In this document: positions 2,728 through 54,811 of the stretch, one piece after another
Numbering within the stretch: the first letter of the stretch is position 1
Layout: each line of letters starts with the position of its first letter
NCBI GenBank assembly: GCA_949752745.1
Contig: OX457033.1
Coordinates: forward strand, 19,941,907 to 20,005,906
From: Protula sp. h YS-2021
Lineage: Eukaryota; Annelida; Polychaeta; Sabellida; Serpulidae
Reading direction: 5' to 3'
Length of the DNA stretch: 64,000 nucleotides
Notes under the pieces: generated by a model
What the model saw: the letters and a program-made list of their open reading frames with translations, nothing else
Databases searched by the model: none
Told to the model about the DNA's origin: nothing
Position numbers and translations under genes: made by a program

Positions 2728-5160
2728 TTAATGAATCCATCTGTAAAAAGACTTCGATATATATTCCAATATTTCACCCATTGTAAGCAAACTGGCTCCA
2801 AGGAACAAGCCAAGTTGGCCACCAAGATTAGAAATCAATGTATCTGCAGTGTATGCTTTTATTTGTTTAGTTTCAGTATACTGCAACACTGGATAAAACA
2901 CATTTAAGTGTATCATGTTTTGCCGGATTTCGTCAGCTGTTCTGTAAGGGCTACTGACGACACTTGCTAATTCCGTTAAGATGGGGCTTGGTAATTGCAA
3001 TGATGATATTTTTGTTTCGTATGTGGTTTGTTTACATGGATACAGACATTTACATTTGGTAAAATACGTAGTTGCTCTGTTACGGATGCAGGAATAGTAG
3101 TCGTCGAGGTTACACAAATTGTTCATATCAAACGAACAATTACAACCATAAAGTGCGTGCTCAAGCATACAGTCTAACATACAACTTTCATAACTATATC
3201 GCCCCAATTCTACAATCTTGTATGAATAAGAGTTGCGTTCATTCTCCTCCATGCATGACACGTTTGAGTAAGGAGGCGGAAGAGTTTCAATGACATTTTT
3301 GTTGATTGCTATGTAGGCCTCTTTACCCGGCTCTATAGCGGATGCCTGTTCGTTGACTCGGGGATATATGCTCTGGTCATGCACTACTACCTTGGCACCC
3401 ATACCATAGGACGCGCTTACAAAATAGTTTTCCACGTCAACATTGATCCAAACTCCTACGTAACAAACAAAAGGTAGAGTAACATTGACCAGTGCAAGCA
3501 ATATCAGTATCAGCATTTTCTCTCTTTTTGTTTATTTTCTGTCTAGTTCAAAATCTGTAAATTAAATTTTAGATATATTATGTACTTTCTGCGTATACCA
3601 GATCAATAATTTTAAAAGCTGAAACTAATTTATATTATTTAAGTACACATGTATTAATGGATGTTTGTACAAATAAGTGATAAAGTCGACTAATGTAGTC
3701 GTATGTAGTATTACATATGAGATGTATCACGTACTTTGTACACATACCAAACCAACGTATTCAAAAATTTAAATTAAACATAAGAAAAATTTACCACTAA
3801 GGAAGGAGTAACATTTACAAGTGCAAGAGACATCAATGGAATACATTTCATCTTTTCTCTGCTAGATTTGTTTATTTGTTTTTGTGTTTTCTTTGTCTAA
3901 TTCAAAATATATAAAATGGCATTTGAGGGTTATTACGTATTTCTACGCATACCAAATCAATTTTAAAAAAAATCAAGCATTAAATCAAACAACTCTCGAA
4001 TTATTTTTAATTGCATCAGTGCATTATAATTTAAATAACATATTCCCAATTCTTAAATGCAATTAATGCAAACTTCGTGATGCAATAGAATCAACTAAGT
4101 AAATTATTCTAAGAATGGCAGGTGCATTCAAAGTTAAAGACAAAAACCGCACATTTTATATTGTTATTTTTTATTGACGTCTATAAACTAGAATAAGCCA
4201 GCATGACAAAGATGGTGTCTTTGATATCAAGTGATATTTGTTTTGCATAACCGTGGCAGCTATATTTAAGAAGAATTTAAGAGGAAAGGAAGTTACAATT
4301 TCGCTTCGGTTTGCCTATCATCGACATCAGCGACATTGTGGTTTATGTGTTATAAAGAGCGATATACCATAGGGGCTGGTACTGTTACTTTGTATCAAAG
4401 TTGGGCACTCGAAAACGATTTAATCACAGAGCTCCAACACAAAGTACTCACTTTTGTGTCTGCTGTAAGCCACCAGCCAAAGAACAAAATACACTAATTA
4501 ATATCTTTTCATTACATCACCACTCATGAGACTAGAAAGCTAAAACTAAAACTTACTTAGACCATATAGAAAACCGGGCTGAGTTGTGAATTTGCTGCCT
4601 TCTCTGTCTTCTATTGCATTGTCCATAAATGTAAAACATATACCTGTATCTGTCATTCTGATAGCAAAGTAATCCGTGCAATTAAAGATTTCTGCATTAA
4701 ACTCACATTCAATCAGAAAGAAAGGTATTGTTTTGTAAAACAGATCCTGTAGAACATGAGACTGTAGTAACCGCTTCACTCTGGAGTGTTCCGTTATATT
4801 TGTGTATGGATTAAGTTCTAAATATTTTATCCAGAATTCCAACTCAGTATTATTCTGCACATAAGATTTCGGAAACTGGTTCATTTGGCAGATTGATACT
4901 GCTGGAAACTGTAGATGATCAGCAGTTAACAGAGATATTTTAGTTGAACTTTCAAAACTGTAATATTTCACTATTGAAAAAATTGAAAGTGTTAAGTAGC
5001 TTATCAACATTGCTAACATCATGAGAATCCAAACACATCGTCTAATAAAATGTGAGTTTGTGTCACACGCTTGACTTAATCCATGAAGCGTAGCAGAATT
5101 CGCAAATTCTCGAAGCGATTGCATTTGATTGTTTTGTATTGTTTGTGTTGATTTCTCCAT
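2728..5160 (-). CDS. DEG/ENaC family cation channel subunit, copy 1
   Basis: Two-exon gene read right to left: exon 1 is 4557-5160 and exon 2 is 2728-3455, giving about 443 residues. Exon 1 has the His-Gly gating motif (TLHG, residues 24-27), TM1 (about 42-64) and the post-TM1 signature FPAVSICQMN (85-94). Exon 2 has a Cys-rich extracellular part and TM2 with GLFLGAS, the G-x-S selectivity-filter region, then a very short cytoplasmic tail. Exon 1 ends at a GTAAGT donor in phase 1. Exon 2 follows a pyrimidine-rich ...TAG acceptor with two bases that complete the codon, so the frame joins exactly. The family forms trimeric amiloride-sensitive Na+ channels of the plasma membrane, gated in different members by peptides, protons or mechanical force; ligand unknown here. 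The protein is short for the family (often 500-700 residues). Both exons are open and no disabling change was seen. Confidence 0.9.
3456..4556 (-). repeat. DEG/ENaC intron with internal tandem duplication
   Basis: The intron of channel copy 1 contains two related blocks, about 3480-3785 and 3790-4060. Each has a GTGCAAG-type start, a TTTTCTCT...TTTGTTTATTT tract, then AATTCAAAAT and a TATTACGTA/TATTATGTA stretch. Similar paired blocks lie in the introns of copies 2 and 3 (27720-27960, 39345-39800), so the duplication predates the array. No coding content was seen. Confidence 0.5.
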
Positions 5161-8559: not shown

Positions 8560-8839
8560 CCGCCGACACATTAGATTTATTTACAGATGCGGTCGAATCT
8601 GTGGGATTCGGAGGGTTTATGGGTACACGTTGGTTTTTCAGGGTCATTGCCAGTTAATTTTAAAACTTATAACGTAGTTGTTCTTGAATTTATACCTATT
8701 TCTTTTCATTTATTTTGCAATTGCAATATGTTACAAAATAAGTACATAACGTTCAATCCTGATAATAAGGCATTAGTTTATGTAATTAATCGACAAACGT
8801 CGAAATATCCAACAACTTTATATCTTATTCCTAAATTAG
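8560..8839 (+). pseudogene. DIRS-type RNase H remnant, 5' part
   Basis: Contains LDLFTDAVESVGFGGFMG (about 8569-8623), the Asp-bearing first RNase H block, and later FNPDNKALVYVINRQTSKY with the second Asp block. The frame runs to PKLV at the LTR element junction and continues as ILSLHFNI at 19165, so the LTR element landed inside this domain. Internal frameshifts are present. Confidence 0.65.
8836..8839. repeat. Target-site duplication, left (TTAG)
   Basis: TTAG directly precedes the left LTR and is repeated at 19161-19164 directly after the right LTR. A 4-bp duplication fits Ty3/Gypsy integrases. Confidence 0.85.
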
Positions 8840-9040
8840 TGTCGTGAACTCACCTTATTCAGGATTTACAGCTTTTGGTCATTGGATGTTACCAGCCGGA
8901 CAGTTGGAAGAAGACTGAATCCAAAGCATGGAGATTGATCACACTGTGAGTCGTGGTTGCCCATCGAGTCCTGCCGCCGTTGTTGGCGAGTTCCATGATG
9001 CTGAAATGCTACTATATAAACTTATAATAACTTCACGACA
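8840..9040 (-). repeat. 3' LTR
   Basis: 201 bp, identical by eye to 18960-19160. In element orientation it starts TGTCGTGAA and has a TATA-like TTTATATAGTAG about 20 bases in, giving a very short U3. It ends TTCACGACA. Confidence 0.92.
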
Positions 9041-9447
9041 TTCTTCCCCATTTTATTTTTTTTTTAACAATAGCAATATATCTAGAAATAAACGTTCAAT
9101 TAGTGCACCTATAATGGTTACACTAATCTCATTATATTTTTGCTAAAAGTAACTGCGAAAAACATGTATATAGTACGTTCTTCCCCGTCTTATTTTTTAT
9201 ATACACACATATGACGAAGAAGTATGAAAGTCTCTGACGTTTTCTCCCCATTCTTATTTTATATACATTTGCACAAGTAAAGACATTATTATTATTGATA
9301 AACTTAATTAATTTAATATATTTACACTGGTTACGAAATCTTCATATCACACTGAAATACAGATAAACCCACTTCTCAATGTAGGTATGAATCAATGTAC
9401 TGCAGTGATCAACAAAGAGAAAAAAAACAGTAAAAGGTTCAAACCTT
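9041..9447 (-). promoter_or_regulatory. 3' untranslated region with polypurine tracts
   Basis: In element orientation the sequence abutting the 3' LTR is AAAATGGGGAAGAA (9041-9054), a good polypurine tract for plus-strand priming. Two related tracts, with GGGGAAGAA and GGGGAGAAA cores, lie at about 9178-9192 and 9241-9256. Only the one touching the LTR should prime. Confidence 0.65.
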
Positions 9448-10779
9448 TCAAATTTGGTAGATTCTCAAGGTATTGAAATACACCGTTGTAAGAAGTTCGT
9501 TTATTTCAATGGATCTGAGGCTGCTTAAGTTTAGTGCCAAATCAGCTATGCTTGAAGATGTTTTCCCTAGGTATGGACTATCACTTTCTAATAAGATTCG
9601 TTGGATATTGACGCTATTTAGGAATTGCTTGTGTTTGCTAATATCACTGGATTTAAAGAGAATCGAGGTAAGACCAAAACATGTATTTGGAAAACTATTG
9701 AGCCATTTTTCCATATGATGTATGCTGTAGGTAAAACAGTGAAAGTGTATACGATGAAATTTTGAGAGATGTTTCTCGGCAATTGCCAAAAGTTTTTCGA
9801 AAGCTTCATCTTTTCCATCTAGGTCACGACAATGAATGACTAAAGTTTTTCCACTCTCCGTAGCAAGTTTGAGAAAGAATTCAAATAATGAGATTTGTTT
9901 GGAGACGCCGGATGATGAGGTGAAGTCAAGACCAGTTTCACCTAAACCAACAACTGAAGGAAGCTTCAAAAGATTATAAATTATTTTCTTCAACATCGTT
10001 ATACCTACATCCGGAAATCGTGGATGTGCCCCAATTGTAAAATACAAACGAGAATCATTGTCATGCAATATTTCCAATTTCTCCGGTAGTGGAGGCTTTC
10101 TAAAGCAGCAATTATTAATACCCAATGCCACTGGTATAGTAGACGTAGCACATGACTGAGAAAAGCTGGAAAATTTAAATTTACTTAAGGTTTGATCTAA
10201 ATGAAAGTGTGAATCTGCTAAAACATACATGTCCGAAGTGTTGAAATTTTGTACAGCGCCGTATTTGATTTCTATTTGTTGTGTGTTTGTTAGTTTTGAT
10301 AATAGCACAGACAATACTCTCCAATGGATGAGAAGGACCGGTGAGTTTAATGGGTGCAGAGAATAATGCACTGGTGAAATGCCCAACTTCTGACTAACCA
10401 CGTCCATAAGCTTTCGGTCATCCTCAGATACAACGCACTTAGCAAATGAAGGAAGAAACCATTCTTTTTCTAGCAACAGCTTATATAAAGCTTCAACCGA
10501 ACAAACTTGGAGGAAAGCCGCTACCCGAAGCAAACTTTCAATTATAACATCAGCTGATTCAGAAGAGACATTTTTGTTTGGATTGAACTGAATAGGAAGA
10601 TGGCAAGAGATGGTATGTATTCTTGGATGTCTATTTTTGTCACCGCACAGGAGGCAGATACTGGTTTTTCGTTTTAATGATTTTCGGTTTTGACTATTTT
10701 CAGAGACTAAAGTTGACTCTTCCACCTCTTCCTCTGTGTAATCCTCGTAATCAGGCACAAAGTGTTCTTCATCTTCCAT
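9448..10779 (-). CDS. TatD-family metal-dependent nuclease ORF of the retrotransposon (TATDN2-like)
   Basis: The open frame starts at 10830 (460 codons), but the ATG at 10779 is preferred (443 residues). It has the context GCCATGG and lies nine bases after a strong acceptor (pyrimidine tract then CAG, exon starting at 10788). In 460-aa numbering there is an acidic N-terminus, a zinc-finger-like cluster C59-x2-C62 with H68, H72, C76 and H77, a helical linker, and a TatD barrel from about 203 to 460. All TatD metal-site motifs are visible: HxH (H208, H210), E298 in GETGLDF, H333 in VIHCRD, H364 in HFHCF and D417 in ESDSPY. TatD proteins are Mg2+-dependent DNases/exonucleases, reported in DNA repair and apoptosis. 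The gene lies 121 bp downstream of pol, in the same strand, where retroviruses have env. Role in the element unknown; cDNA processing or target interaction are guesses. Confidence 0.88.
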   Translation of the reverse strand: MEDEEHFVPDYEDYTEEEVEESTLVSENSQNRKSLKRKTSICLLCGDKNRHPRIHTISCHLPIQFNPNKNVSSESADVIIESLLRVAAFLQVCSVEALYKLLLEKEWFLPSFAKCVVSEDDRKLMDVVSQKLGISPVHYSLHPLNSPVLLIHWRVLSVLLSKLTNTQQIEIKYGAVQNFNTSDMYVLADSHFHLDQTLSKFKFSSFSQSCATSTIPVALGINNCCFRKPPLPEKLEILHDNDSRLYFTIGAHPRFPDVGITMLKKIIYNLLKLPSVVGLGETGLDFTSSSGVSKQISLFEFFLKLATESGKTLVIHCRDLDGKDEAFEKLLAIAEKHLSKFHRIHFHCFTYSIHHMEKWLNSFPNTCFGLTSILFKSSDISKHKQFLNSVNIQRILLESDSPYLGKTSSSIADLALNLSSLRSIEINELLTTVYFNTLRIYQI

Positions 10780-10951
10780 GGCCACAGGCTGTACCAGGAA
10801 AATAGAAGAATAATTAATTTTACCAAACATGTCAGATGTACAAAGTATGCATTAAAGTATGTACAAGTACGTATGCATTAAAGTATATACATGAATTTCA
10901 TATGCAACATGATGATGCTTTTTCACATCGTTATGAATCACTACACTTAGA
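10780..10951 (-). promoter_or_regulatory. pol-TatD spacer with candidate splice acceptor
   Basis: Between the pol stop and the nuclease start, the minus strand carries a near-repeat of CATACTTTAATGCATA type twice (about 10844-10890). Next comes TTCTTCTATTTTCCTGG TACAG with the cut after 10789. The pyrimidine tract plus CAG just before a Kozak ATG suggests a spliced subgenomic mRNA, as used for env genes. No RNA evidence is available here. Confidence 0.5.
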
Positions 10952-13900
10952 TTACTTGTAATCACTCAAATAGCTTGGTCGCTTTATTTTACGACCGGTT
11001 CGTGTTGTGATAGGATCTTTGTTCTCAGACTTGTTATGCATCTCATTATCAAGATCAAACAGTGGTTGTAATTCCAAGTCATCACTTTCAATATCGGTGT
11101 AAGTTTCATGATTTTCATTTGACTTTGAACTATCGAATAAACCGGTTACATCTTCAAGTATGTTTTCAGGCTCTACTTCTTCACCATATAAGATTTGATT
11201 TCTCACTCTAACTATTGCAACTGGTATATTTCTATCATGGCACGGTTTTAAATTATCGTGATGTATTACTAATCTTCTATTAAGAGTTTTTGAGATCTCA
11301 TATGTAACTGGTGAAACTACTTTTGTTACAACGTATGGACCGGAATACACTTCTTTCAATTTGTTACTTTGCCCCACAACAGATGCTAGATTTAAACGAT
11401 ACACGTAGTCTCCTATTTGGTATTTATTGATTTTAAGTTTGATGTCGAAGTTTCGTTTTTGAACACGCAAAGACCGCTGAAGTTCCTTTCTTGCTACTGA
11501 GTGTGCTTTGTCATGTGCTTCTAATAGCTGTCTGAGATATTGTGAGTGATTCTCAAAATGCTCTTGCTTTGTCGCCAAACCCGTAACTATTTCTACTGGC
11601 TGAATAATTTCCCTTCCTAACATTAACAAATTTGGGGTAAAACCTGTGTGGCGATTTTCTGTACATCTGATTGCTCCGGCTAACTGTTGTAAATTCAAGT
11701 CCCAGTTTGCATGATCATCTTCAATGTAGGATCGAATCATTTGTAAAATTAGTCTATTGAAGCGCTCTACTTGGCCATTTGAAGAAGGATGATATGGTGT
11801 TGTACGAGATTTTGTTATGTTGAGTTCTTCACAGAGCGATTGAAATAGGTTACTCTCAAAGCATTTCCCTTGATCGGTGAAAATTTCGATTGGACAGCCG
11901 AATCTTGATATGACATGATCTACTAATGTTTTGGCTACCTCTTCACTGGTTTGTGTTTTGATTGGGAAAAGTTCTATCCATTTTGTAAATTGATCTACTA
12001 TTGAAAGGATGTAATTATTTCCTGAATGGCTAGTAGGGAAAGGTCCAAGAAGGTCTATGTGAATTTTTTCCATCGGTGATGAGGCATGGTATTGGCCAAG
12101 GCTGTGTTTAGGTTTCCGGTTTGACTTCTTATTCTTATTACAGATGTTGCAGGTTCCAATGTACAGTTTTGTATCAAGGTATCTGTTTTGCCACATGAAC
12201 GACCGTTTTATCTTGCTATAAGTTTTTCGCATGCCCAAATGACCTGAAGTTACACTGTCGTGGCATTCTTTTAAAATTTCGTTTACCATCTTTTTGGGAA
12301 CCATTAGTAGGTTACGTCTTTCGGTTGGAAATTCATAAACGTAATGCAACACGCCTTTATCCAAGAGTAGTTGAGATTTGTTTCGCCAAAATCGTTTCAC
12401 TGCTGGGCTCTGTAACATAACTTCGTGCTGTAATGGTTTATAATCATTTTCTAGCCAAACGATCAATGTTCTAAGATCTTCATCGTCTAGTTGTTGTTTT
12501 CGTATTTCGGAATCTTGAGAAGAAGAACATAATGAAACAGATCTTAGTTTTTTGTTAGCTAGAGGCACCACATTGTCGACGTCTTCTGAAAATCGCGACC
12601 ATTGATGATGAGCACGAGTGCAGAAAGAACATCCTTTGCATGGAAGCGACTCTAATTCTTTTTCAGGTGTATAATGATTGCAATAAGTCTCTCGGTCAGG
12701 TATGCGGGACAGTCCATCTGCGTTGCCATGAAACTTACCAGGACGATGTTGTATGACCATGTTGTATTGGCTTAATTCTTCCAACCATCGAGCAAGAATC
12801 CCCTCTATGTGCTTAAAACGTAGAAGCCAGGTCAAGCTATTGTGATCTGTACGTACCAAAAAACGACGGCCTAATAGATAATTCCGGAATTGTCTCGTAA
12901 ATCTAACAATTGCCAAAAGTTCTTTGCGTGTTGTGCAATACTTTCTGTGTGATGGGCTTAGAACGTAACTGCCGTATGCAATAACTCTTTCTTCTCCAGT
13001 TTGCGGATTTATTTGAGATAACTCGGCTCCAATTGCTTCATCAGATGCATCAGTGTCTAATACAAAATCGTAGTTGGGATTGGGATACGCTAGTGTAGGC
13101 AGATTAATCATTATTGTTTTAAGATTTTCAAAAGCTTGCTCATGTTCTTCTAACCATTTGAATTTTACTCGAGATCCGGTCAATTTGTATAAAGGCGCTG
13201 AAATTTTAGCATAATTTTTTATGTGGTCTCTGTGATAGTTGACAAAGCCTAAAAATCTTTCTACTTCTTTGGTGTTGATTGGAGCAGGCCAGTCCCGTAC
13301 TTTAGCAATGTTTTCTGGATTTACTTGAACCCCATCTTCGCTGACTAGCTTTCCAAGAAATAAAACTTGTTTCTGAAAAAATCTGCATTTCTTTGGCTTT
13401 AATTTCAAATTGTTTTCCTTAAACTTCTGTAAGACATTCTTGATATTCTGTAAATGGTCTTTGAAGTCTCTTCCCAAGACAATTATGTCGTCTAGATAGG
13501 CGAGTACTTGCTTCCATGTCATACCTCGCAACAGAAATTGAACAACTCTCTGAAACACTGACGGAGCGTTTGATAATCCAAATGGCATTCTATTATATTC
13601 AAATAATCCATATTTTGTCGTGAAAGCAGTTTTGTGTCGATCATTTTTATCAATTAAAATTTGCCAATATCCACTGCTCATATCAACGGTACTAAACCAC
13701 GTATTCTCGGATAAAGTGTCGATACATTCGTCAATTTTGGGTAAAGGAAAACTATCTTTGACTGTGACAGAATTTAATTTTCTATAATCAATGCACCATC
13801 TGACGGAACCATCTTTCTTGCGAACCAAAACTGGACAGCTTGCCCATTCTGAATTGGAGGGGGAAATTACATTTGCTTTTAACATTTTCTCGAGGTGCTC

Positions 13901-14455
13901 TTCCTCTTCTGCTTCAAAATTAAATGGAGTACGTCTCATGTTTTGTTTTATGGGTTTAGCGTCTTTTGTGTCAATTTTCATCTGAATTTTGTCAAAGCAT
14001 CCTATGTCCAAATCATCTGTTGAGAAAACGTCGGCATATTCAATGATAGCCTCTGCAAATTTCCACTTTTCATTTTCGTTGAGGTTTGTTGATGACTGAT
14101 CGAACATGTCTTTTAAGTGTTCCGGGATAGAACTTAGAATATCTTGATTTACATTTGTGGTGGTTCTTCGTACAAAAGGCTCAGAAGCTTGTTCGATCTC
14201 ATCATAGTTACCATCAGCTTCGGCACTTGTTTTGTCTGTTGCAGGCTCTTGATCTGGGATTTCAGTGACCTCTTCAGTGACTTCAGTACATTCTATGGCA
14301 GTTCCAATAAACTTGTCTTTACTTAAATGGATATGAACTGTTGTAGGATTGGCAATTTCTAAAACAACTTCTTTTTTACCTCTGACTAGAACGTTAGGAA
14401 TCAGACCTTTGTTTTTTCCGTGTGATGTAATAACGAATTCTTTTTTATCATCAAT
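10952..14455 (-). CDS. pol: Ty3/Gypsy reverse transcriptase-RNase H-integrase
   Basis: The frame is open from directly after the TAA at 14456-14458 to the stop at 10952. The first ATG is at 14107, giving 1051 residues, but upstream codons are in frame with the protease, so translation probably reads in from there. In 1051-aa numbering: RT about 60-240 with FSTVDMSSGYWQ and YLDD (204-207), RNase H about 345-470 (DTDASDEAIGAELS, RTDHNS), integrase zinc finger H616, H623, C653, C656, and catalytic D685, D745, E781. A GPY/F-type module (SGPYVVTKVV) lies near residue 935. No chromodomain follows. It copies element RNA to DNA in virus-like particles and integrates it. All catalytic residues look intact. 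Confidence 0.92.
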   Translation of the reverse strand: MDDKKEFVITSHGKNKGLIPNVLVRGKKEVVLEIANPTTVHIHLSKDKFIGTAIECTEVTEEVTEIPDQEPATDKTSAEADGNYDEIEQASEPFVRRTTTNVNQDILSSIPEHLKDMFDQSSTNLNENEKWKFAEAIIEYADVFSTDDLDIGCFDKIQMKIDTKDAKPIKQNMRRTPFNFEAEEEEHLEKMLKANVISPSNSEWASCPVLVRKKDGSVRWCIDYRKLNSVTVKDSFPLPKIDECIDTLSENTWFSTVDMSSGYWQILIDKNDRHKTAFTTKYGLFEYNRMPFGLSNAPSVFQRVVQFLLRGMTWKQVLAYLDDIIVLGRDFKDHLQNIKNVLQKFKENNLKLKPKKCRFFQKQVLFLGKLVSEDGVQVNPENIAKVRDWPAPINTKEVERFLGFVNYHRDHIKNYAKISAPLYKLTGSRVKFKWLEEHEQAFENLKTIMINLPTLAYPNPNYDFVLDTDASDEAIGAELSQINPQTGEERVIAYGSYVLSPSHRKYCTTRKELLAIVRFTRQFRNYLLGRRFLVRTDHNSLTWLLRFKHIEGILARWLEELSQYNMVIQHRPGKFHGNADGLSRIPDRETYCNHYTPEKELESLPCKGCSFCTRAHHQWSRFSEDVDNVVPLANKKLRSVSLCSSSQDSEIRKQQLDDEDLRTLIVWLENDYKPLQHEVMLQSPAVKRFWRNKSQLLLDKGVLHYVYEFPTERRNLLMVPKKMVNEILKECHDSVTSGHLGMRKTYSKIKRSFMWQNRYLDTKLYIGTCNICNKNKKSNRKPKHSLGQYHASSPMEKIHIDLLGPFPTSHSGNNYILSIVDQFTKWIELFPIKTQTSEEVAKTLVDHVISRFGCPIEIFTDQGKCFESNLFQSLCEELNITKSRTTPYHPSSNGQVERFNRLILQMIRSYIEDDHANWDLNLQQLAGAIRCTENRHTGFTPNLLMLGREIIQPVEIVTGLATKQEHFENHSQYLRQLLEAHDKAHSVARKELQRSLRVQKRNFDIKLKINKYQIGDYVYRLNLASVVGQSNKLKEVYSGPYVVTKVVSPVTYEISKTLNRRLVIHHDNLKPCHDRNIPVAIVRVRNQILYGEEVEPENILEDVTGLFDSSKSNENHETYTDIESDDLELQPLFDLDNEMHNKSENKDPITTRTGRKIKRPSYLSDYK

Positions 14456-15010
14456 TTAACCTATCATTTCTACCTTTGCTTGCACTACGCTTTCAGGAGG
14501 TACGACGATTTTCTTTTTCATTTGAACTCTATGTATTTCATACTGTTGATTTGGGTCTCTGACAACAGTTATTGGAACGGTTGTGTTTTTCATCAAAAGC
14601 TGGTTTTGGTATAGGTCAACGACAACGTTATTTTGTAATAAAAAGTCCAAGCCTAAAATCATTTGATCGCTTATCGTTGCAACGTACAAATCAATGCAGA
14701 AATTTTTTCCTCCTAGAAGAATGTTGATATTGCGTGCTATCTCTGCGCTGAAGGTTTGTGAATCACTAACTCCCTTAAGTTTTACTTTTTCACCAAGTTT
14801 TGGCTTATCTGAGAGATTATTGAAAATATCTTGCCTCAAGACACAAACTTGAGCACCACTGTCTATTACTGCAGAAACTGCCTGTTTTCCTATTTTTACT
14901 GGAGTTACTATATTGACGTTTTGGTTTTGATTTCGCCATGAAATTTCTCGAATCTTTGTTGAGTTCTCGGTTGTAGCTTTTGGTTTGCCCTTTTGCTTAA
15001 ATTTGTGGGT
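14456..15010 (-). CDS. Ty3/Gypsy aspartic protease region
   Basis: The retropepsin motif VIDSGAQVCVL is encoded near 14840-14870, followed by LGLDFL (about residue 65 downstream), the usual second protease signature. The frame is open from the end of gag but in the -1 register relative to Gag, and it stops at TAA 14456-14458. That stop is in frame with pol. The protease should cleave the Gag and Pol polyproteins. There is no good ATG, so expression by -1 frameshift near the gag stop (TTAAAATAG context) is likely. The heptamer is not a canonical slippery site, which lowers certainty about the mechanism. Confidence 0.75.
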   Translation of the reverse strand, partial: THKFKQKGKPKATTENSTKIREISWRNQNQNVNIVTPVKIGKQAVSAVIDSGAQVCVLRQDIFNNLSDKPKLGEKVKLKGVSDSQTFSAEIARNINILLGGKNFCIDLYVATISDQMILGLDFLLQNNVVVDLYQNQLLMKNTTVPITVVRDPNQQYEIHRVQMKKKIVVPPESVVQAKVEMIG

Positions 15011-15024
15011 CGCAATATGGGCAC

Positions 15025-16977
15025 CTATTTTAACCCCATTTCGTTTTTTTCAAACGTGACATTCTTTTCTTTTCTTTGGCTTGTTTTTGGACTATCTCCG
15101 TGTTTGAACGAATAACGCTCTAAGCTGTCGTTTCGTTTTTCTTGTTTTTCGTTTCTGTCGTAGCGTTCGGGTGTTCTATCACTGTACCTCTGGCGAGGGT
15201 TGTCTGGTGACTGTCGACTCTCTGGAGTTCTTTCTCTATAACTTCGACGAGGGCTAACAGACAGTTCCCTATAGCGTTCTGGTGTCACATCTCTATAGCT
15301 TCGACGAGAAGTAAAAGTCACATCTCTATGACATTCTGGTGTGACATCTCTGTGAGTCCTTCTTGGGCTGTGAATACGAGAATCATAAAATCCATATCTC
15401 CTCTCGTGATGTTCTTCAGGTGCAATATAACTTCGGTTAGTTTCTTGATAGTTTGATCTCGAATCATAGAAGCGTTGACGTAAGTGTCGAGTATCTGGAG
15501 AACGTCTTTCGGACCGGTTGTAATTACTTGGCGCTCGTCTTTCGTAAGAATATTGTCGCTGTCGATAACATTGGTCATGTTGCCTAGGTCTGAGCTTGGT
15601 TGAGGAACGTGGCTCGTATAAGTAAGTGCGAGGGTTCCTGACATGGTAAGACCGCTGTTCATAATAAGGGCTTTGACTTCTGTCGAGCCTCCGATAGCTG
15701 TACTCATCATCAGAGCTGAAGCTACGTTCCCTGTTTCCTCTATAGGTACGTAAATCTTTGTGCCGTCTATATTTCTCATCGTCGCTAGAGCTTCTATCAT
15801 GGTTGTCACGATTGCCACGCTCTCTATTGTTGCGATGACGACCAGAAGGAGGCATTCTACTCTTGGAACGTTCTTGTCTTCGATTACGTGATCGATCTTC
15901 GGACGAGTCACTATCAACGCGAGTGTATCGTCGAATCCTAGCGGAAGCGTCTCCTAATATTGCAATTTGATTACTAATGTGCGCTTTTAATCGCCTAACT
16001 GCTTGGTTTATGTTAGCAGGAGGTGGCTCTTGATCGGCTAGCAACAATGCAGCTCTTCGGTTTGAACATCCTTTAATAAGAGCTTCAACTGCGATGGAGT
16101 TGAGTATGTTGTCCTCTGCTACAGGATAAGCTTGCTTTGCTAAACGACCTATACGCTCAGCAAACTCATCTTCTGTTTCACCGACAAGTTGTTTGATAGA
16201 AGCCAGTTGTCTTCTTGTCGTGATCTCGTCGTCACGAGTACTAAAGCGCTCGGTAAGTCTCAAAACCAATTCATCATAATTCCTCCGTATACTATCAGGT
16301 AAAAGATCTTTAAATTCCGCTGCGGATTCCCTGAGGCAGAGAATGAGGAAGTCCAATTTGTCTTTCTCACTGACTTCAAATTTGTTAACCACAGCTTGAA
16401 ATGTAGATAAAAAAGCTTCCCATGAACCGGTGCCGTCAAATTTTGGGAGATTATGTAAAATTTTTGACCATGTTTGAGTTTTCGATTCTTCTTTCCTGTT
16501 AAAGCTTCTTTCTCTCTTTCCAGGTCTTTTTGGTGTTGCTGTAAAAAATTCTGCAGGTATAGACACATCAGGGTTGTCACGATCCTTGTCTCCTTCCGAC
16601 TCTGGCGTAGCATAAGTAGCATGAATTGACTCTTCAATTTCCCGTTTAATTATTTTTTGTTTTTCATCTAAAGCGTGGTGCATGGTTGCGGCAAGTTCTT
16701 GATTTATTTCGTGACAGATTTCTTTCTTTTGAGCTGTCATTCTCTTGTCTATTTCTTTGGATATATCTTCCCTCAATTCTTGTTTTGTCTCTTGCCTACC
16801 TGAGACTGCAATCAGTTTCATCTGCTCCAGTATGCTATGATGTTCTTTCCTCCATTCCTCTCTTAACTCTCTCTGTTCTCTCCTAAAATCCTCAAATAAT
16901 TGTGACAACACCTTTGTTATAACATATTCTTCCTTTTCTTCCTCACTTTCCATCTTTGTCTTTACCCCACGTGGCAT
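15025..16977 (-). CDS. gag: Ty3/Gypsy Gag with Arg/Ser/Tyr-rich tail
   Basis: 650 residues from an ATG at 16977. Residues about 10-120 are charged and probably coiled coil (LREEWRKEHHSILEQ region). Residues about 165-330 match the retrotransposon Gag/capsid domain, with FDGTGSWEAFLSTFQ and a later FAERIGRLAKQAYP. From about 345 to 640 the chain is strongly basic and repetitive, with units such as RRSYRDVTPE, SVSPRRSYRERTPE and RYSDRTPERYDR. No CCHC zinc knuckle was found, so this basic tail probably does the RNA binding. Gag assembles virus-like particles. The frame is fully open. A 199-codon frame at 15318-15917 is a shadow of this repeat. Confidence 0.88.
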   Translation of the reverse strand: MPRGVKTKMESEEEKEEYVITKVLSQLFEDFRREQRELREEWRKEHHSILEQMKLIAVSGRQETKQELREDISKEIDKRMTAQKKEICHEINQELAATMHHALDEKQKIIKREIEESIHATYATPESEGDKDRDNPDVSIPAEFFTATPKRPGKRERSFNRKEESKTQTWSKILHNLPKFDGTGSWEAFLSTFQAVVNKFEVSEKDKLDFLILCLRESAAEFKDLLPDSIRRNYDELVLRLTERFSTRDDEITTRRQLASIKQLVGETEDEFAERIGRLAKQAYPVAEDNILNSIAVEALIKGCSNRRAALLLADQEPPPANINQAVRRLKAHISNQIAILGDASARIRRYTRVDSDSSEDRSRNRRQERSKSRMPPSGRHRNNRERGNRDNHDRSSSDDEKYRRHKDLRTYRGNRERSFSSDDEYSYRRLDRSQSPYYEQRSYHVRNPRTYLYEPRSSTKLRPRQHDQCYRQRQYSYERRAPSNYNRSERRSPDTRHLRQRFYDSRSNYQETNRSYIAPEEHHERRYGFYDSRIHSPRRTHRDVTPECHRDVTFTSRRSYRDVTPERYRELSVSPRRSYRERTPESRQSPDNPRQRYSDRTPERYDRNEKQEKRNDSLERYSFKHGDSPKTSQRKEKNVTFEKNEMGLK

Positions 16978-18959
16978 TCTTCTCTAAACATGTATTCTGG
17001 CATTAAGGCGTATGGGTATGTTCTGTATCCAATGATTTTCAAAGTAAAAAATCAGAAATTTTGCCTAATATTAAAAAAAAAAAATAAAAATTATAATTTA
17101 TACAACAAACAAGTCAGCCTTGCGAAGCTAAACCAAGAATCTCAATCTCGGTAAAAGAACCACGCAAGAAATGAAATGTTTGTTAAACTTTCACATGATT
17201 TGAGAAAACTAAATAAAAGAAACCAATTCAAAATGAAGTCTTGTACAAACGAAATGAGTCTGTGTCGAGATGTTATAAATGTTCTGGCTAATTGTGGCTT
17301 GTTTTTGTTATTCTTTAATGAGTATTAATTTTTGTCAGAATTTAGAATGCGTAGGTTTAGTTACATATCTAGATATAATACCTAAGATGTTTGTTATTTA
17401 CTAAAGCACATAGATTTCTCGTATTTTGATAAAATTACTGGGAATCTATAAATTGAATAGACTTGAAATTGAAGTGAAATTTAAATAACAGACGATTCAC
17501 TCTAACCAAGTTCGACCAAGAATCTCGATCTAGGTAAGTGAACGAGGAAAGAAATGAAAAGTTTGTTAAATGCCAAAGAAATTCAATGTTATATTGTATT
17601 GTATTGACAGGTTGTGAGTCTATTGTTATGTGCAGCTTTTATGTACTCACTTGCAATACAAACCTTATTGATATTTTCCAAATGGGTGTTTGGGTTTTCC
17701 TGATTAATTCGAAGAAGACACTGTGAAAACTTTCAGTCAATTTTTGTTGACTTTCAACCAACAAAAATCTTTCTGAAAATGCTAAGTTAAATCATTTATA
17801 CTGAGTGAATGTTTAATTTAATATTGCTTTATACTGTAACGTTTATTCGAGGGAATAACTATTGCATAAACGCTATAATTCGACAAAGAGTTAGTGTGTC
17901 TTTTCAGCTAGATTATGATGCAACGATGTGTTAGTCTTGTAATTAAAAGCCCTTTAGTTTATAAGAGGAATATGACAGGTAATTTTATAACATACGACAA
18001 GCCTTTTGTTTGCTTGAGCAAACAAAGAAATTTCTCGTATGAATATTACAACACTTTGATCTGGGTACCAAACTAGTGTTCAAAAAAAAAATAAATGTTT
18101 CGGGATGACTGACAAATTCTGACTGGAGAGTATGCAAATTATGTAAATAAATCTGTGAACACGGAAGTGAAAAAAAATATACAAATTTGTTTAATATCTC
18201 ATGGATTATTTATCAAAATCTCAAAATAGATATATGGTAGATGATTACTAGATATCTATTATTATCTACTGTAGTTTTAAGGAGATCGGTTTGAGGTAAG
18301 CGTTATTTTAGCACAGTTTATAACATTTTTGAAAATCATTCATCAAAGCACTTTTTAATGGATCTGTTGAGTATGGATCTTTAAGAATAATATATTTTTA
18401 TTGGAAATGTCCTTTGATGTGCTGAATAATGTGTAACTTTTAATATAATAGGACAAACTTCTCAAATATCGCCAATTGACTATAATAAGGTTTTCAAGAA
18501 GTTCCTGTCAATACCGTCTATTACTTATAAATACTGTTCAATATTACACTTCGGATTTGTTGAAATAAAAATTGTTGTTAATAAAACCAAATGACTGCAG
18601 TTGTTGGCGTATGGATTCGCACTTTGTAAATAGTTCCAAATGTAACGATTTAAAGTTCTAATTTCAATTAAATCGAAGAAGGACGTTCAATTAATTTTTA
18701 TAATTTCGATTAATATATATACTTATATATATATATATATTATATATTTAACTTAGGAATGACTTATGGAATTTATTAAAATTGGCCTACGGATTTGAAT
18801 ATGGCATCCAAGATCTCCCTGGGAATCACTGACTTTCCGCGCGAAATTCAAATTTCAAAATTACAATATCCTTTCAATCACTATTTCTTTTAATTTTCAC
18901 TGTGCTATTATATTCAGTTATGATATCCAAGTGAGTCCTCCTATGTCTTCTGGTACCAA
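16978..18959 (-). promoter_or_regulatory. Long retrotransposon 5' leader with primer-binding site
   Basis: About 1.98 kb without a minus-strand ORF. Next to the 5' LTR, minus-strand TGGTACCAGAAGA (from 18958 down) begins with TGG at an offset of one base and fits a primer-binding site; the tRNA was not identified. Two related blocks, 17124-17200 and 17502-17572, share CCAAGAATCTC and GAAATGAAA-GTTTGTTAAA. A minus-strand donor-like GCAAGTGAGTA lies near 17641-17651 and could pair with the acceptor before the nuclease ORF. An AT tract lies at 18712-18745. Confidence 0.55.
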
Positions 18960-19160
18960 TGTCGTGAACTCACCTTATTCAGGATTTACAGCTTTTGGTC
19001 ATTGGATGTTACCAGCCGGACAGTTGGAAGAAGACTGAATCCAAAGCATGGAGATTGATCACACTGTGAGTCGTGGTTGCCCATCGAGTCCTGCCGCCGT
19101 TGTTGGCGAGTTCCATGATGCTGAAATGCTACTATATAAACTTATAATAACTTCACGACA
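18960..19160 (-). repeat. 5' LTR
   Basis: 201 bp, identical by eye to 8840-9040. It carries the promoter for the element and is followed in element orientation by the putative primer-binding site. Confidence 0.92.
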
Positions 19161-19164
19161 TTAG
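19161..19164. repeat. Target-site duplication, right (TTAG)
   Basis: Repeats the TTAG at 8836-8839. Joining the flanks across one copy restores the RNase H frame of the older element (PKLV then ILSLHFNI). Confidence 0.85.
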
Positions 19165-21854: not shown

Positions 21855-22433
21855 ATGTCAGAAGTAGAAACTTCGCCAGGTGAGAGCGGGCACCCGTCCG
21901 CATCAATACATGGAAGCACGTGTAATGCGACAGGAGTAGAGAGCATGATTGAAAATACTGGCTTCTCAGTTAAAATCGTCATCGGTTTTTCGGTAATCAT
22001 CATAGTTCTCGCAATTATTGTTTCAGTGTTAGCTGCTGAATTATTCAGAATAAAATTCCGTAAAAGGGGAGTTCACAGAGGCCAGCAGACTGAAAGTACG
22101 TCATCTCATGACCACGCTGCACGAGCCACTGATGGTTACATCAATATTAATATGAATGTTGTCGGTCAAAACATAAAAACGAAGAATTCATCGAAGAGAA
22201 AAACTAATGTTAATACAGATAAGAAAAAGGCTGGAACCAGAGGAAACAACTCTAATGATGCACAGAAATCAACAAAGTGCAAAAATGCAGCCGGAGAAAA
22301 ATATGAATATTGCAAAAGGCATTCCTATGAAAACGTACAACGTGGCGTGCTTCAGGCAGAATATGAGAACATTCGGAACCCAGAAAACGTCCTTGAAGAT
22401 GATATTTCAGCTATTTACCACACTATAGAGTAA
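21855..22433 (+). CDS. Single-pass membrane protein with tyrosine-motif cytoplasmic tail, copy 1
   Basis: 192 residues in one exon. The in-frame TAA 18 bases upstream supports this ATG. A short N-terminus (1-37) has an N-glycosylation site (NAT at 24-26) and no signal peptide. One transmembrane helix spans about 39-61 (IVIGFSVIIIVLAIIVSVLA) and is followed by basic residues (FRIKFRKR), giving an Nout-Cin type III topology. The tail has tyrosines at 95 (YINI), 150/152, 158 (YENV), 170 (YENI) and 188 (YHTI). Y158-x2-V-x8-Y170-x2-I has ITAM-like spacing, and three are YxN, the Grb2 SH2 preference. I infer a signalling adaptor or co-receptor; the family was not recognised. An AATAAA signal lies at 22521. 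Three more copies occur downstream, all damaged. Confidence 0.75.
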   Translation: MSEVETSPGESGHPSASIHGSTCNATGVESMIENTGFSVKIVIGFSVIIIVLAIIVSVLAAELFRIKFRKRGVHRGQQTESTSSHDHAARATDGYININMNVVGQNIKTKNSSKRKTNVNTDKKKAGTRGNNSNDAQKSTKCKNAAGEKYEYCKRHSYENVQRGVLQAEYENIRNPENVLEDDISAIYHTIE

Positions 22434-26962: not shown

Positions 26963-29255
26963 TTATGAAGACAAAAAAGTTCTATTTTTTTTGTAAAGAC
27001 ATCTGTAAAAACACATCGCTATATATTCCAATATTTCACCCATTGTAAGCAAACTGGCTCCAAGAAACAAGCCAAGCTGGCCACCAAGATTAGAAATCAA
27101 TGTGTCTTCAGTGTATGCTTTTATTTGTTTAGTTTCAGTATACTGTAATATTGGAAAAAACACGTTTAAGTGTATCATGTTTTGCCGGATTTCGTCAGCT
27201 GTCCTGTAAGGGCTGCTGACAACACTTGCTAATTCCGTTAAGATGGGGCTTGGTAATTGCAATGACGATATTTTTGTTTCATATATAGTTTGTTTACATG
27301 GATACAGACATTTACATTTTGTAAAATACATAGATTCCCTGTAGCGGATACAGGAATAGTAGTCGTTAAGGTTACACAAAGAGTTCAAATCGAACGAACA
27401 ATTGCAACCATAAAGCACGTGCTCAATCATACAGTCTAACATACAACTTTCAAAACTATACCGCCCCAATTTTAAAGTCTTGTATGAATAAGAGTTGAGT
27501 TCATTCTCCCCCATGCATGACACGTTTGAGTAAGGAGGCGGAAGAGTTTCAATGATATTTTTGTTGATTGCTATGTAGGCCTCTTTACCCGGCTCTATAG
27601 CGGATGCCTGTTCGTTGACACGTGGATACGTGCTGTGGTCATGCACGACTACTTTGACACCCATACCATAGGATGCGCTTACAAAGTAGTTTTCCACGTC
27701 AACATTGATCCAAACTCCTACATAACAAACAAAAGAAGGAATAACATTGACTAGTACAAGCAATGTTAACATAATTTTTTTATCTCTTCTCTACTAGTTT
27801 TTTTGTTCATAACATTGACTATTATCAGTTGAATACATTTTGATCTTTTCTAAGCTAGCTTTGTTTGTTTTTGGTTTTTGTCTAGTTCAAAGTATGTTAT
27901 ATTACATTTGAGGGTTATTACGTACTTTCTACGCATATCAAACCAACCTTTTTGAAAAATTAAACATCAGCGAAATTTAAAAGTATAATACATATTATCC
28001 AAATATACGTATATACAAGGATATGCCTGTGCAACTTGCAAAACTAAGCCATAAAGTCGCCTTTTATACATATACATACATATACGTACACTTTAACCGC
28101 TATTAATTACGCACCTTATCGGAAAATTATTTGAATGAGACAACTTGTACATACAAAACAATGCTATTCCACGCTCGATTTAGTTTTAATTACATCAGTG
28201 CATTATAATTTAAATAACCAATTTGCATACTAAGAATTACAGTTGCACTCGTTATAAATAACAGCAAATTTTACATTGTCTGTTATTTATTGATATTTGT
28301 AAGATACAAAAATTCAGCATGACAAAGATGACGTCTTAGAAATCAAGCGATATTTGTTTTGCATAGCCTAGGCTGCTATATTTACGAAGAATTTAAGAAG
28401 AAAGGAAGGTATAATTTCGCTTCTGTTCGCCTATCAACGACATTGTGGTTTGTGGTTTTCGTGCTATGAGAGCAACATATCATGGGGCTGATACTGTATC
28501 TTTGTAACAGACTTGGGCATTCGTAGATGGTTTAATCACATAGCTTCAATATGTCGCGGTATCCAATACAAAGTAATCAAAATACTCTAATAAACATTTC
28601 TTTATTATATTATCTGTCATGAAATTATAAAACTACGACTAGCAAACTTACTTAGACCATATAGATAACCGGGCTGAGTTGTGAACTTGCTGCCTACACT
28701 GCCTTCTATTGCATCTTCCATAAACGTCAAACATATACCTGTATCTGTCATTCTGACTGCAAAGTAATCCGTGCAATTAAAGATTTTTGCATTAAACTTA
28801 CACTCAATCAAAAAGAAAGGTATTGTATAGCTAAACATATCCCCTAAGATATGAGACCGCAGTAGCCGCTTCACATTCGGGTGTTCCGTTGCATTTGTGT
28901 ATTCATGAAGTTCTAAATATTTCATCCAGAATTCCAACTCAGTATTATTCTGCAAATAAGATTTGGGAAACCGGTTCATTTGGCAAATTGATACTGCTGG
29001 AAACTGCAGATGATCAGCAGTAAACAGAGATATTTTAGTTGAACTTTCAAAACTGTAATATTTCATTATTGAAAAAATTGAAAATGTTAAGTAGCTTATC
29101 AACATTGCTAACATCATGAAAATCCAAACACATCGCCTGATGAAATTTGAGTTTGTATCACACGCTTGACTTAATCCATGAAGCGTGGCCGAATTCGCAA
29201 ATTCTTGTAGCGATTGTATTTGGTTGTTATGAATTGTTTGTGTTGATTTCTCCAT
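26963..29255 (-). CDS. DEG/ENaC family cation channel subunit, copy 2
   Basis: Same two-exon structure as copy 1: exon 1 28652-29255, exon 2 26963-27717, about 452 residues. GTAAGT donor in phase 1 and acceptor ...TAG before GAGTTTGG. The His-Gly motif, post-TM1 FPAVSICQMN, the extracellular cysteines and GLFLGAS in TM2 are all kept. The C-terminal tail is longer than copy 1 (ends KNRTFLSS) because the stop is displaced. Substitutions relative to copy 1 are scattered and no break was seen, which suggests selection on a working paralogue. Confidence 0.9.
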
Positions 29256-38612: not shown

Positions 38613-41079
38613 CTATTTTTTGTGAAGACATCTGTAAAAACACGTAGATATATATTCCAATATTTCACACATTGTAAGCAAACTGGCTCCAAGAAACAAG
38701 CCAAGTTGACCACCAAGATTAGAAATCAATGTGTCTGCAGTGTATGCTTTTATTTGTTTAGTTTCAGTATACTGTAATACTGGATAAAAGACGTTTAAGT
38801 GTATCATGTTTTGCTGGATTTGGTCAGCTGTTCTATAATTGCTACTAATGCTTGGAAATTCTGGTAAGATGGGGCTTGGTAATTGCAATGACGATATTTT
38901 TGTTTCGTATATAGTTTGTTTACATGGGTATAGACATTTACATTTTGTAAAATACGTAGATTCTCTGTAGCGGATGCAGGAATAGTAGTCGTTAAGGTTA
39001 CACAAAGAGTTCAAATCGAACGAACAATTGCAACCGTAAAGTGCGTGCTTAATCGTACAATCTAACATGCAACTTTCAAAACTATACCGCCCCAATTTTA
39101 TAGTCTTGTATGAATAAGAATTCAGCTCATTCTCCTCCATGCATGACACGTTGGAGTAAGGCGGTGGAAGAGTTTCAATGACATTTTTGTTGATTGCTAT
39201 ATAGGCCTCTTTACCCGGCTCTATAGCGGACGCCTGTTCATTGACACGAGGATACATGCTCTGGTCATGCACGACTACTTTGACACCCATACCATAGGAT
39301 GCGCTTACAAAGTAGTTTTCCACGTCAACATTGATCCATACTCCTAACAAACAAAAGGAGGAATAACATTGACTAGTACAAGCAATATTAATATGAACAT
39401 TTTTATCTTTTCCCTACTAGTTTTGTTTGTTCATTTTTGTTTTTGTCTAGTACAAAATATGTAAATTACATTTGAGGGTTATTATGTACTTTCTTCCATA
39501 CAAAACCAACGTTTTTAAAAAACTGAAATGAAACATAAGAAAAAAATTAGCAGTATATTATATATTATTTAACTATACGTTTATACAAGGATATGCCTGC
39601 ATAGCTACAACTAAGGCATAACATTGACCAGTACATCAATATCAATTGAATGCATTTTGATTTTTTCTCTGCTAGCTTTGTTTGTTTGTTTTTGTTTGTT
39701 TGTCTGGTTCAAGATAAGTAATATTACATTTGTGGGTTATTACGCACTTTCCTCACATACAAAACTGACGTTTTTGAAAGATCAACCATTAAATATAGGA
39801 GAAATTTTAACAGCATGATACATAATATCAAAATATGCATAAATACAAGAATATGATCTATAACTTGCAAAAATAAGTCGATATGTATACATATACATAC
39901 GTATGCGTATACATAAACCCCTATTAATTGCGCACCTTTACGAAATTTTTTTGTATGAGACCATTTATTAAGAAAGAAGAATGCTATTGCACGCTCGAAT
40001 TAGTTTTAATTATACCAGTGCTTTATAATTTAAATAAAAATTTCGCATTTCTTTAATAAAAGTCATGCAAACTACGTGATGCAATAGAATTAGCTAGGTA
40101 TATTAAACTAAGAATGACAGATAAACTCACACATAACAGCAAATTTTGCCTTTTTTATTATTTATTGATATCTGTAGCATAGAATAAGCCAGCATGACAA
40201 AGATGACGTCTTTGATATCAAGCGAAATTTGTTGGTTTGTGGTTTTCTGTTATGACAGCGACATACCATTGGGGCTGGTACTGCCACTTTGTAAAAGAGT
40301 TGTGCAGTCGTAAATGGTTTAATCACACAACTTTAATATGTCGCGGCATTCAATGCAAAGTAATGACTTTTGTATCTATTGTAAGCCACCAGCAAAGGAA
40401 TAAAAATACACTAGTAAGCATTTCTTTATTATAACATCTGTCATGAAATTATAAAGCTACGACTAATAAACTTACTTAGACCATACAGAAAACCGGGCTG
40501 AGTTGTGAACTTGCTGCCTACTCGCCCTTCTATTGCATTTTCCATAAACGTCAAACAAAGAGCTGTCTCTGTCATTCTGACTGCAAAGTAGTCCGTGCAA
40601 TTAAAGATTTCTGCATTAAACTTACACTCAATCAAAAAGAAAGATATTGTATAGCCAATCATATCCTCTAGGATATGAGACTGTAGTAGCCGCTTCACGT
40701 TCGAGTGTTCCGTTACATTTGTGTATTCATTAAGCTCTAAATATTTCATCCAGAATTCCAACTCAGTATTATTCTGCACATAAGATTTGGGAAACCGGTT
40801 CATTTGGCAAATTGATACTGCTGGAAATTGTAGATGATCAGCAGTTAACAGAGATATTTTAGTTGAACTTTCAAAACTGTAATATTTCACTATTGAAAAA
40901 ATTGAAAGTGTTAAGTAGCTTATCAACATGGCTAACATCATGAAAATCCAAAAACATCGTCTGATAAAATGTGATTTTGTATCACACGCCTGACTTAATC
41001 CATGAAGCGTGGCCGAATTCGCAAATTCTTGTAGCGATTGTATTTGGTTGTTTTGGATTGTTTGTGTTGATTTCTCCAT
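38613..41079 (-). CDS. DEG/ENaC family cation channel subunit, copy 3
   Basis: Exon 1 40476-41079 and exon 2 38613-39343, about 444 residues. The frame is open further upstream to 41133, but MEKSTQ is conserved in all copies and is taken as the start. Splice phases match copies 1 and 2. The His-Gly motif, FPAVSICQMN, and GLFLGAS are intact. A local change in the region before TM2 (LPEFPSISSNYRTADQI in place of LTELASVVSSPYRTADEI) is the main difference and lies in the extracellular part close to the pore. Confidence 0.9.
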
Positions 41080-41347
41080 TTTTTGTATTTTAATTTTAAC
41101 TTGATAAAACGTGTTAGTTTTGATGACTGACATATGACAAGGTATCCTTGGCCTATGATTTTATAACAAATATGGCTTACGCAAGCATGCTTAGACCTTT
41201 TAATTTGCCATCCAATCAATCCAGCACTGGTGTTATAGGATGTTTTAACATTTTGTCTGGAGCACAGTTACACAAAACAATTACACAAACTAACTGGTGT
41301 TGTCATGTCACCCCACTAAAAGCAGAGTTATGCCGTGAACGCAAAAA

Positions 41348-54219: not shown

Positions 54220-54811
54220 ATGCCAGAAGCAGAAACCTTGCCAGGTGAGAGTCAGAACCCGTCTACATCAGTAGATGGCCGGACGTGTAATACGACGGGA
54301 GTAAGCATACGACAGGGCACCACGAGTGAAAATACCGGCTTCTCAATTAATATCGTCATCGGTTTTTTCGGTAATCATCATAGTTCTTGCGATCATTGTT
54401 ACAGTGTTAGCTGCTGAACTAATCAGAATAAAGTTCTGTAAAAATCGAGACCGCAGAAACCAGCAGACACAAAGTACTTTATCTAATGACCACTCTGCAC
54501 AAGACACTAATGGCTACGTCAATATTGACATGAATGCTGTCGATCACAACATAAAAACGAAGAATTCATCCAAGAGGAATACTAATGATAATACAGAAAA
54601 GCAGAAGGCTGGGGCAAGAATAAACAATTCTAATGATGTGCAGAAATCACAAAATGGCAAAAAAGCAGCCGAAGGAAAATATGAACATTGCAAAAGGCAT
54701 TCCTATAAAAACGAACAACGTGACATGCCTCAGGTACAATATGAGAACATTAGAAACCCGAAAAAGGTTCTTGAAGACGATATTTCAGCTGTTTACCACA
54801 CTATAGAGTAA
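54220..54811 (+). pseudogene. Membrane-protein copy 4, single frameshift
   Basis: The N-terminus (MPEAETLPGESQNP, N-glycosylation site NTT) and the rest of the protein are in two overlapping frames (54220-54417 and 54326-54811). The cause is one extra T in a T6 run near 54362, where copy 1 has T5. The transmembrane core, YVNI, YENI and YHTI are kept. The first half of the ITAM-like pair has changed to YKNE. It could be a recent pseudogene or a sequence error in a homopolymer. Confidence 0.7.

Follow-up and report, generated by a model that had tools for sequence, protein, structure and literature searches.

The 64-kb window analysed here (the whole stretch of Protula sp. h YS-2021 DNA, G000:C10:19941907-20005906, in a genome of 863 Mb) contains a minus-strand Ty3/Gypsy-type element of about 10.3 kb (8840-19160), bounded by two identical long terminal repeats (LTRs). 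Between pol and the 3' LTR, on the same strand, lies a third open reading frame (ORF; 9448..10830, 460 aa) which encodes a zinc finger, a helical region and a TatD domain. A sequence-only reading of the window had put a TatD gene where env would lie in such an element, and this arrangement is upheld. LTR elements are usually thought to need Gag and Pol only, with env the usual third gene, and TatD enzymes are Mg2+-dependent DNases. Comparison across the same genome shows that, in a group of divergent Ty3/Gypsy-type families, the stretch from pol to the 3' LTR regularly holds a third gene, encoding a TatD protein that in most families has a zinc finger. The anatomy, distribution and selection of the TatD-bearing element are well supported, and the account of them given below is almost certainly correct. 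Features lie on the minus strand unless stated otherwise.

Anatomy of the element and its third ORF

The TatD domain (PF01026; 9454..10215, residues 206-459) is matched over profile positions 2-253 of 253, with an E value of 3.8e-35 and a score of 121.9 bits (cut-off 27). The motifs HFH (the HxH of the sequence-only reading), GETG, HCRD, HCF and ESDSPY are all present, as had been claimed, and contain the residues that act as metal ligands in the TatD family (H208, H210, E298, H333, H364 and D417). Over 30 aligned rows, four of these six columns are invariant and the other two are conserved in at least 90%. The predicted structure of the whole protein has a pLDDT of 87.2 and a pTM of 0.85, with stretches below 50 confined to residues 1-47, and its TatD half resembles TatD chains in the PDB, with a TMt of up to 0.85 (6l25). 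The structural matches include TatD-type proteins of S. aureus, Thermotoga and E. coli and human TATDN1 and TATDN3, and the profile search was concordant. The whole-domain match, the metal ligands and the TIM-barrel fold of the predicted model place the protein in the TatD family, and it is likely to be a catalytic nuclease. An env-like or membrane fusion protein was considered as the product of the third ORF and rejected, given the Pfam match and the predicted fold.

The frame at 9448-10830 is open throughout, as described earlier; its likely start is nevertheless the second Met (10779), which has an acceptor-like site ahead of it and corresponds to the first residue of most homologues, P0003 having a more upstream start. 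The eight closest homologues are 40-49% identical to the window protein; seven are 431-451 aa long and can be aligned over their full length, and the eighth (313 aa) has no N-terminus. Most of the homologues carry FVPDY, or a near variant of it, close to their start. The zinc-finger-like N-terminus noted previously corresponds to a C2H2-like motif, C59-x2-C62-x9-H72-x4-H77-x-P79 (10594..10656), the ligands of which are retained in seven of the eight closest homologues, i.e. in all seven that possess the region. The motif is also kept in 10/10 frames examined from clade A, the clade of the window element, and is gone from the degraded copy L011. With a looser pattern, the finger (C-x2-C ... H ... 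H-x-P) is recognised in 23 of 52 TatD homologue proteins and in none of the seven fish proteins among them. No Pfam model matches the N-terminal part of the third ORF above its cut-off, and in the homologue P0010 zf-C2H2_2 reaches merely E 0.035, on an adjoining stretch. The element protein is like cellular TatD proteins (E. coli TatD/YcfH, human TATDN1 and TATDN3) in its fold and metal ligands, and unlike them in the addition of the N-terminal zinc finger and of a helical region that bears a conserved HW motif.

The remaining anatomy is that of a Ty3/Gypsy element. The direct repeat (8840-9042 and 18960-19162; 203 bp, 100% identity) comprises an LTR proper of 201 bp, of the form TG...CA, and two further bases that are AA flanks, identical by chance. 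The 5' LTR (18960..19160) and, by pair comparison, the 3' LTR (8840..9040) have the same sequence, beginning TGTCGTGAA and ending TTCACGACA, and are flanked by a target-site duplication (19161..19164 and 8836..8839; CTAA on the minus strand, TTAG on the plus strand); the identical LTRs and TTAG duplication of the sequence-only reading are thereby confirmed. A primer-binding-site-like sequence of TGG type, TGGTACCAGAAG (18947..18958), lies inward of the 5' LTR at a distance of one base, and a polypurine tract, GGGGAAGAA (9041..9049), abuts the 3' LTR. Three GGGGA-purine tracts at about 9040-9260 (minus strand), ahead of the 3' LTR, resemble repeated polypurine tracts. The gag ORF (15025..16977, 650 aa) has an Arg/Ser-rich C-terminus; its Pfam match to Retrotrans_gag is marginal (24.2 bits against a cut-off of 24.1), and it has no Pfam CCHC match at E <= 1. 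The pol frame (15049-10952) encodes protease (PR), reverse transcriptase (RT), RNase H and integrase (INT), and the Pfam series along gag-pol is Retrotrans_gag, RVP_2, RVT_1, RT_RNaseH, Integrase_H2C2, rve and Integrase_p58_C. The PR portion (14456..15049, from Pfam and frame reading) ends in the window copy at a single in-frame stop (14458-14456), a position at which some other copies have an uninterrupted pol frame, and the last five Pfam models fall in the RT-RNase H-INT portion (10952..14455). Classification as a Ty3/Gypsy-type element follows from the identical TG...CA LTRs, the short target duplication and the PR-RT-RNaseH-INT order.

Distribution across element families

A search of the same genome with the window RT-INT protein gave 50 matches, which merged to 44 loci; since 44 of 7441 candidates were scored, TatD-less relatives of middle identity could escape this search. 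At each of the 40 loci with 47-100% pol identity, pol is followed on its own strand by a TatD match at a distance of 0.26-2.4 kb, and at none of the four loci with 39-40% identity was a downstream TatD match found. The TatD matches used in this comparison were the 112 from a profile search of the genome together with six rows of a search with the window third-ORF protein, which itself gave 100 matches (92 of 195 candidates scored). The 40 loci are non-independent: by pol identity, nine belong to the family of the window element (A1), 16 to the near-identical family C and 15 to the remaining families. In the reverse direction, 20/20 fetched TatD places, selected mainly by long open frames, have gag or pol matches upstream; of the two comparisons, that from pol is the less biased. 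Two exon-like clusters of short TatD matches (G000:C1:60505725-60508678 and C6:4667157-4669405) are probably cellular TATDN genes.

The TatD-bearing loci cover at least seven families. Within clade A, A1 includes degraded copies as well as the window element (pol 82-100%), A2 is represented by L016 and L017 (72-74%), A3 by L012-L015 and L029 (63-66%) and A4 by L018 and L019 (63%), and L030, a locus with 58% pol identity, has an A4-like LTR end. More clade-A copies have pol identities of 58-70%, and A5 (L033), with a TatD 48% identical to that of the window, is absent from the scored pol list. Outside clade A are family B (L001-L005, L007, which is the same place as L020, and L021; pol 47% for the sole locus listed), family C (L008, which is the same place as L022, and L023-L027; pol 52-55%) and family D (L006, which is the same place as L031, and L032; pol 50%).

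In family C the third ORF, read over 955 aa in L022, matches NADAR (8e-24) and TatD (1.6e-35) in one frame, and the N-termini of L023-L027 are nearly identical to that of L022; no NADAR match was found by Pfam in the four window proteins. Nineteen of the 112 TatD matches lie in stop-free frames of 924-1122 aa and were assigned to this family by frame length and score, and given these 19 long open frames the sequences point to a recent amplification of family C. L028, which has gag and protease matches and no RT match, is a family C copy with an internal deletion; its protease frame continues into the third ORF (1122 aa). By eye, the third ORF of L022-L027 opens with two CxxCx5Hx5C-like motifs ahead of NADAR. 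The end of the family C gag, read in the sequence upstream of L028, has by eye the form of a CCHC knuckle, for which the window gag has no match.

Selection, descent and homologues elsewhere

The sequence-only reading had asked for dN/dS values and for other copies of the gene, and neither result favours neutral drift of a one-off acquisition: the ORF is kept by other copies and families, at all 40 loci with at least 47% pol identity, and omega for TatD is 0.086 (10 open frames of A1-A4, 438 codons; IQ-TREE, GY+F3X4). The log-likelihood is -6054.1, against -6394.5 with omega fixed at 1 (kappa fixed at 2.0; other kappas were also run). For pol, omega is 0.023 (five rows, 1123 codons). Between-family dS is saturated by counting, and the omega value is to be read as an order of magnitude. 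Within families, TatD dN/dS is 0.25 in A2 (39 differences), 0.24 in A4 (22 differences) and 0.18-0.27 in A3 (4-5 differences); three A1 copies differ by 2-6 bases, and their values of 0.28, 0.55 and 0.83 are uninformative. The metal ligands are retained in clade A, in family B (L001) and in family C, and lesions at other conserved TatD positions occur in L011, L017 and L019. These substitution patterns indicate that selection on the TatD gene is purifying and, because selection has kept the gene intact, it probably aids the survival or spread of the element.

In a tree of 10 RT rows, all from the same genome, A1 and A2 are sisters (100/99), as they are in the TatD tree (100/98), and the agreement of the two trees supports co-descent of TatD and RT for this pair of families. 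Among the wider TatD homologues, the elements of clade A fall together with P0001-P0008 (99/95), and seven fish proteins, of which four bear the name TATDN2, make up a clade of their own (100/99). Recent derivation from TATDN2, or orthology to it, was considered and is not supported by this unrooted tree, in which the fish TATDN2-type proteins are grouped elsewhere.

Homologues elsewhere appear to share the linkage to pol, as judged from matching contig sizes and source labels. The three best TatD homologues (P0001, P0002 and P0003) come from contigs of 29112, 13960 and 10093 bases, and the top three pol homologues (P0054, P0053 and P0055; 62-65% identity) come from contigs equal in size and source label to these, respectively. 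Likewise, P0018 (TatD) and P0097 (pol) are both on 10544-base contigs with the source JGI. The pair P0004 and P0127 (5780-base pol contig) comes from different sources and was not counted. As a control for chance, 32 TatD contigs were compared with 119 pol contigs: eight of 3808 size pairs were within 20 bases and unequal, a rate that predicts about 0.2 exact matches. Among named relatives, the arrangement of finger and TatD domain is found in proteins called tatD in Mytilus coruscus and M. edulis, and among the pol relatives one belongs to the snail Batillaria attramentaria. A search for relatives on viral contigs gave 53 pattern matches, of which none was confirmed. In PMC6962438, the Hox cluster of the giant squid (Architeuthis) is drawn with a "putative deoxyribonuclease TATDN2" and transposon-related genes inside it, and this gene may be an element copy of the same kind.

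Expression and possible function

The position of the third ORF, sense to and downstream of pol, raises the question of how it is expressed. The LTR end reads ...AG/GTGAGTT...ACA and in the 5' LTR contains a putative splice donor, AG/GTGAGT (18968..18975, first intron base 18973). Scored with approximate splice matrices, it is the top site among the 493 GT sites of the element, level with its own copy in the 3' LTR, and within the 64-kb window the octamer occurs in the two LTRs only. The donor is at the same place in each of 13 further loci that were scanned in clade A (L009-L014, L016-L019, L029, L030 and L033), and the donor-like AG/GTGAGT is found at the LTR end in five families. A putative acceptor with a pyrimidine tract and CAG, TTCTATTTTCCTGGTACAG (10789..10807), ends 9 nt ahead of the conserved Met, so that the exon would begin at 10788; it ranks third of the 694 AG sites of the element, and when the 173-nt gap between pol and TatD was shuffled 2000 times with its dinucleotides preserved, this score was attained in 8 cases. 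It is proposed that in clade A an RNA started in the LTR would be spliced from the LTR donor to the acceptor just before the TatD Met, and that the TatD protein would thereby be made separately from Gag-Pol, like retroviral env.

Several observations speak against this proposal. None of the five loci scanned from families B, C and D (L020, L021, L022, L031 and L032), in which the LTRs were not delimited, yielded the donor octamer, and since the donor overlaps the LTR terminus its conservation could partly reflect recognition by integrase. Two acceptor-like sites of the window element, at 16330 in gag and 18152 in the leader, outscore that of TatD. Furthermore, the acceptor is strong in the window family alone, ranking 25-29 of about 700 in A4 and 53-63 of 530-678 in A3; in A2 the acceptor before the Met ranks 87 of 688 (L016), and a better one lies 63 nt further upstream (rank 39 in L016 and 15 in L017). 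Taken together, the sequence evidence appears good for the donor and, as regards the acceptor, good for A1 only, and env-like splicing is considered the likely route of TatD expression in clade A. The leader from the 5' LTR to gag is long (about 2 kb; 16978-18959, minus strand) and has acceptor-like sites at 18152 and 17529; gag too may derive from a spliced RNA.

The role of the protein is a less certain step. As an accessory enzyme, it would use the zinc finger to bind nucleic acid, and the TatD barrel, with its metal ions, would cut DNA, RNA or an RNA:DNA hybrid of the element or of the host; acting in trans, it would clear or process replication intermediates and blunt a nucleic-acid-directed host defence. 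NADAR proteins can strip ADP-ribose from nucleic acid, and the presence of this domain in family C therefore makes us lean towards a role in counter-defence. Human TATDN2 is described in PMC12754012 as degrading the RNA of R-loops and, by analogy, the substrate of the element TatD may be RNA or a hybrid. The uses that the sequence-only reading had suggested for a DNase, namely cDNA trimming, target handling or competition with other elements, are therefore candidates only. The reading as a whole, namely a selected third-gene TatD, expressed by env-like splicing and acting in trans as an accessory metal-dependent nuclease, is judged to have somewhat better than an even chance of being right. 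Further points count against it: constraint on TatD is weaker than on pol; the catalytic glutamate of GExGLD is lost in L020 and L021; A3 groups with A1 and A2 in the RT tree (78/86) but with A4 in the TatD tree (81/89), both weakly; the clade-A finger motif was not found in any of the six family C frames; and the invariance of the finger in 12/12 rows of one alignment is non-independent, as these rows were picked after a motif scan.

Another possibility, in line with the cDNA trimming of the sequence-only reading, is that the TatD protein is taken up into the virus-like particle as a replication enzyme and trims or removes primer remnants, flaps or RNase H leftovers during reverse transcription. 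The conserved catalytic residues are in keeping with such a role, as is a profile match, below the cut-off, to NCBIfam PRK10425 (E 5e-16), a model named 3'-5' ssDNA/RNA exonuclease, and an extra nucleic-acid-binding finger could help a Gag that has no CCHC match. However, this is rather unlikely for two reasons: first, the four elements at 39-40% pol identity have no downstream TatD match. Second, the gene is not part of Gag-Pol, and with the putative splice signals the protein would be produced apart from the particles. Counter-defence or clearance in trans is ranked slightly above processing within the particle.

A nuclease that destroys the RNA or cDNA of competing elements, or of viruses sharing the cell, would have a parallel in the bacterial Qat anti-phage system, to which a TatD nuclease belongs, and the NCBIfam QatD model matches the window protein (E 6e-9) and the Mytilus coruscus homologue (1e-17). 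The element TatD would be like QatD as a TatD-family nuclease in genetic conflict. Nevertheless, the two scores of 35 and 64 bits are far under the cut-off of 230 and no specificity element was identified, which makes a weapon of this kind improbable. Even less probable is a protein that only binds nucleic acid, for example as a nucleocapsid-like chaperone for which catalysis is dispensable: the finger is kept in every clade-A frame examined, and the window gag has no CCHC match whereas the family C gag end (L028) reads as a knuckle, but the TatD ligands are more widely conserved than the finger. The idea that one element alone captured a host TatD gene on a single occasion is rejected, given the TatD gene at 40/40 pol loci in several families, the omega of 0.086, the separation of the element proteins from fish TATDN2-type proteins in the tree and the homologues on contigs that match those of pol in size.

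The preferred reading, in which a selected third-gene TatD acts in trans, may be set beside known elements with additional genes. Errantiviruses bear an env-like third ORF. Plant LTR elements also have env-like third ORFs and, in PMC7264820, splicing is reported for some of these, such as Bagy2; the sense position after pol is common to all of them and to the element described here, in which, unlike them, the product is a TatD protein and not an envelope protein. The Ty3/Gypsy elements of the orchid Phalaenopsis with an ORF for an AlkB m6A RNA demethylase (PMC9289625) likewise combine a Gypsy lineage with an extra nucleic-acid-modifying enzyme, there proposed to reflect host surveillance. They differ in being plant elements with another enzyme, described as recently acquired, whereas TatD here spans families down to about 47-50% pol identity. 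NADAR has been captured by a Gypsy lineage of Ectocarpus, at the N-terminus of Pol, and is carried by Tx1 LINEs of Crassostrea (PMC12477816, the main text of which has no mention of TatD). Family C resembles the former as a Gypsy capture of NADAR and differs from it in that the domain is in the third ORF, in a single frame with TatD (L022). No report of TatD in LTR elements was found in searches of the PMC open-access literature.

A broader proposal, which is put forward tentatively and is judged more doubtful than probable, is that these elements represent an undescribed animal Ty3/Gypsy lineage of mussels and other invertebrates, with a zinc-finger TatD as its defining third gene, fused to NADAR in one branch, expressed from an mRNA spliced from LTR to TatD and serving as a counter-defence enzyme against nucleic-acid-directed immunity. 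If so, many mollusc genes annotated as tatD or TATDN2 would be element genes. Given that 40 of the 44 pol loci recovered from this genome have a TatD match next to them, counts of invertebrate tatD/TATDN2 genes may include transposon genes. The retention of a nuclease as the third gene of several families, once in fusion with NADAR, hints at a step of the life cycle, or a host defence, beyond the reach of Gag-Pol, and makes for a compact, testable enzyme family.

Elsewhere in the window, three similar pairs of minus-strand ORFs form a tandem (2728-5160, 26963-29255 and 38613-41133) and by eye resemble DEG/ENaC proteins, FaNaC-like (peptide-gated sodium channels); the TatD-bearing element sits between the first and the second pair. 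Two paralogous short plus-strand ORFs (21855-22433 and 54326-54811) each have one apparent transmembrane stretch, and a plus-strand ORF at 61450-62412 appears by eye to be an Hsp70-like (HSPA12-type) fragment.

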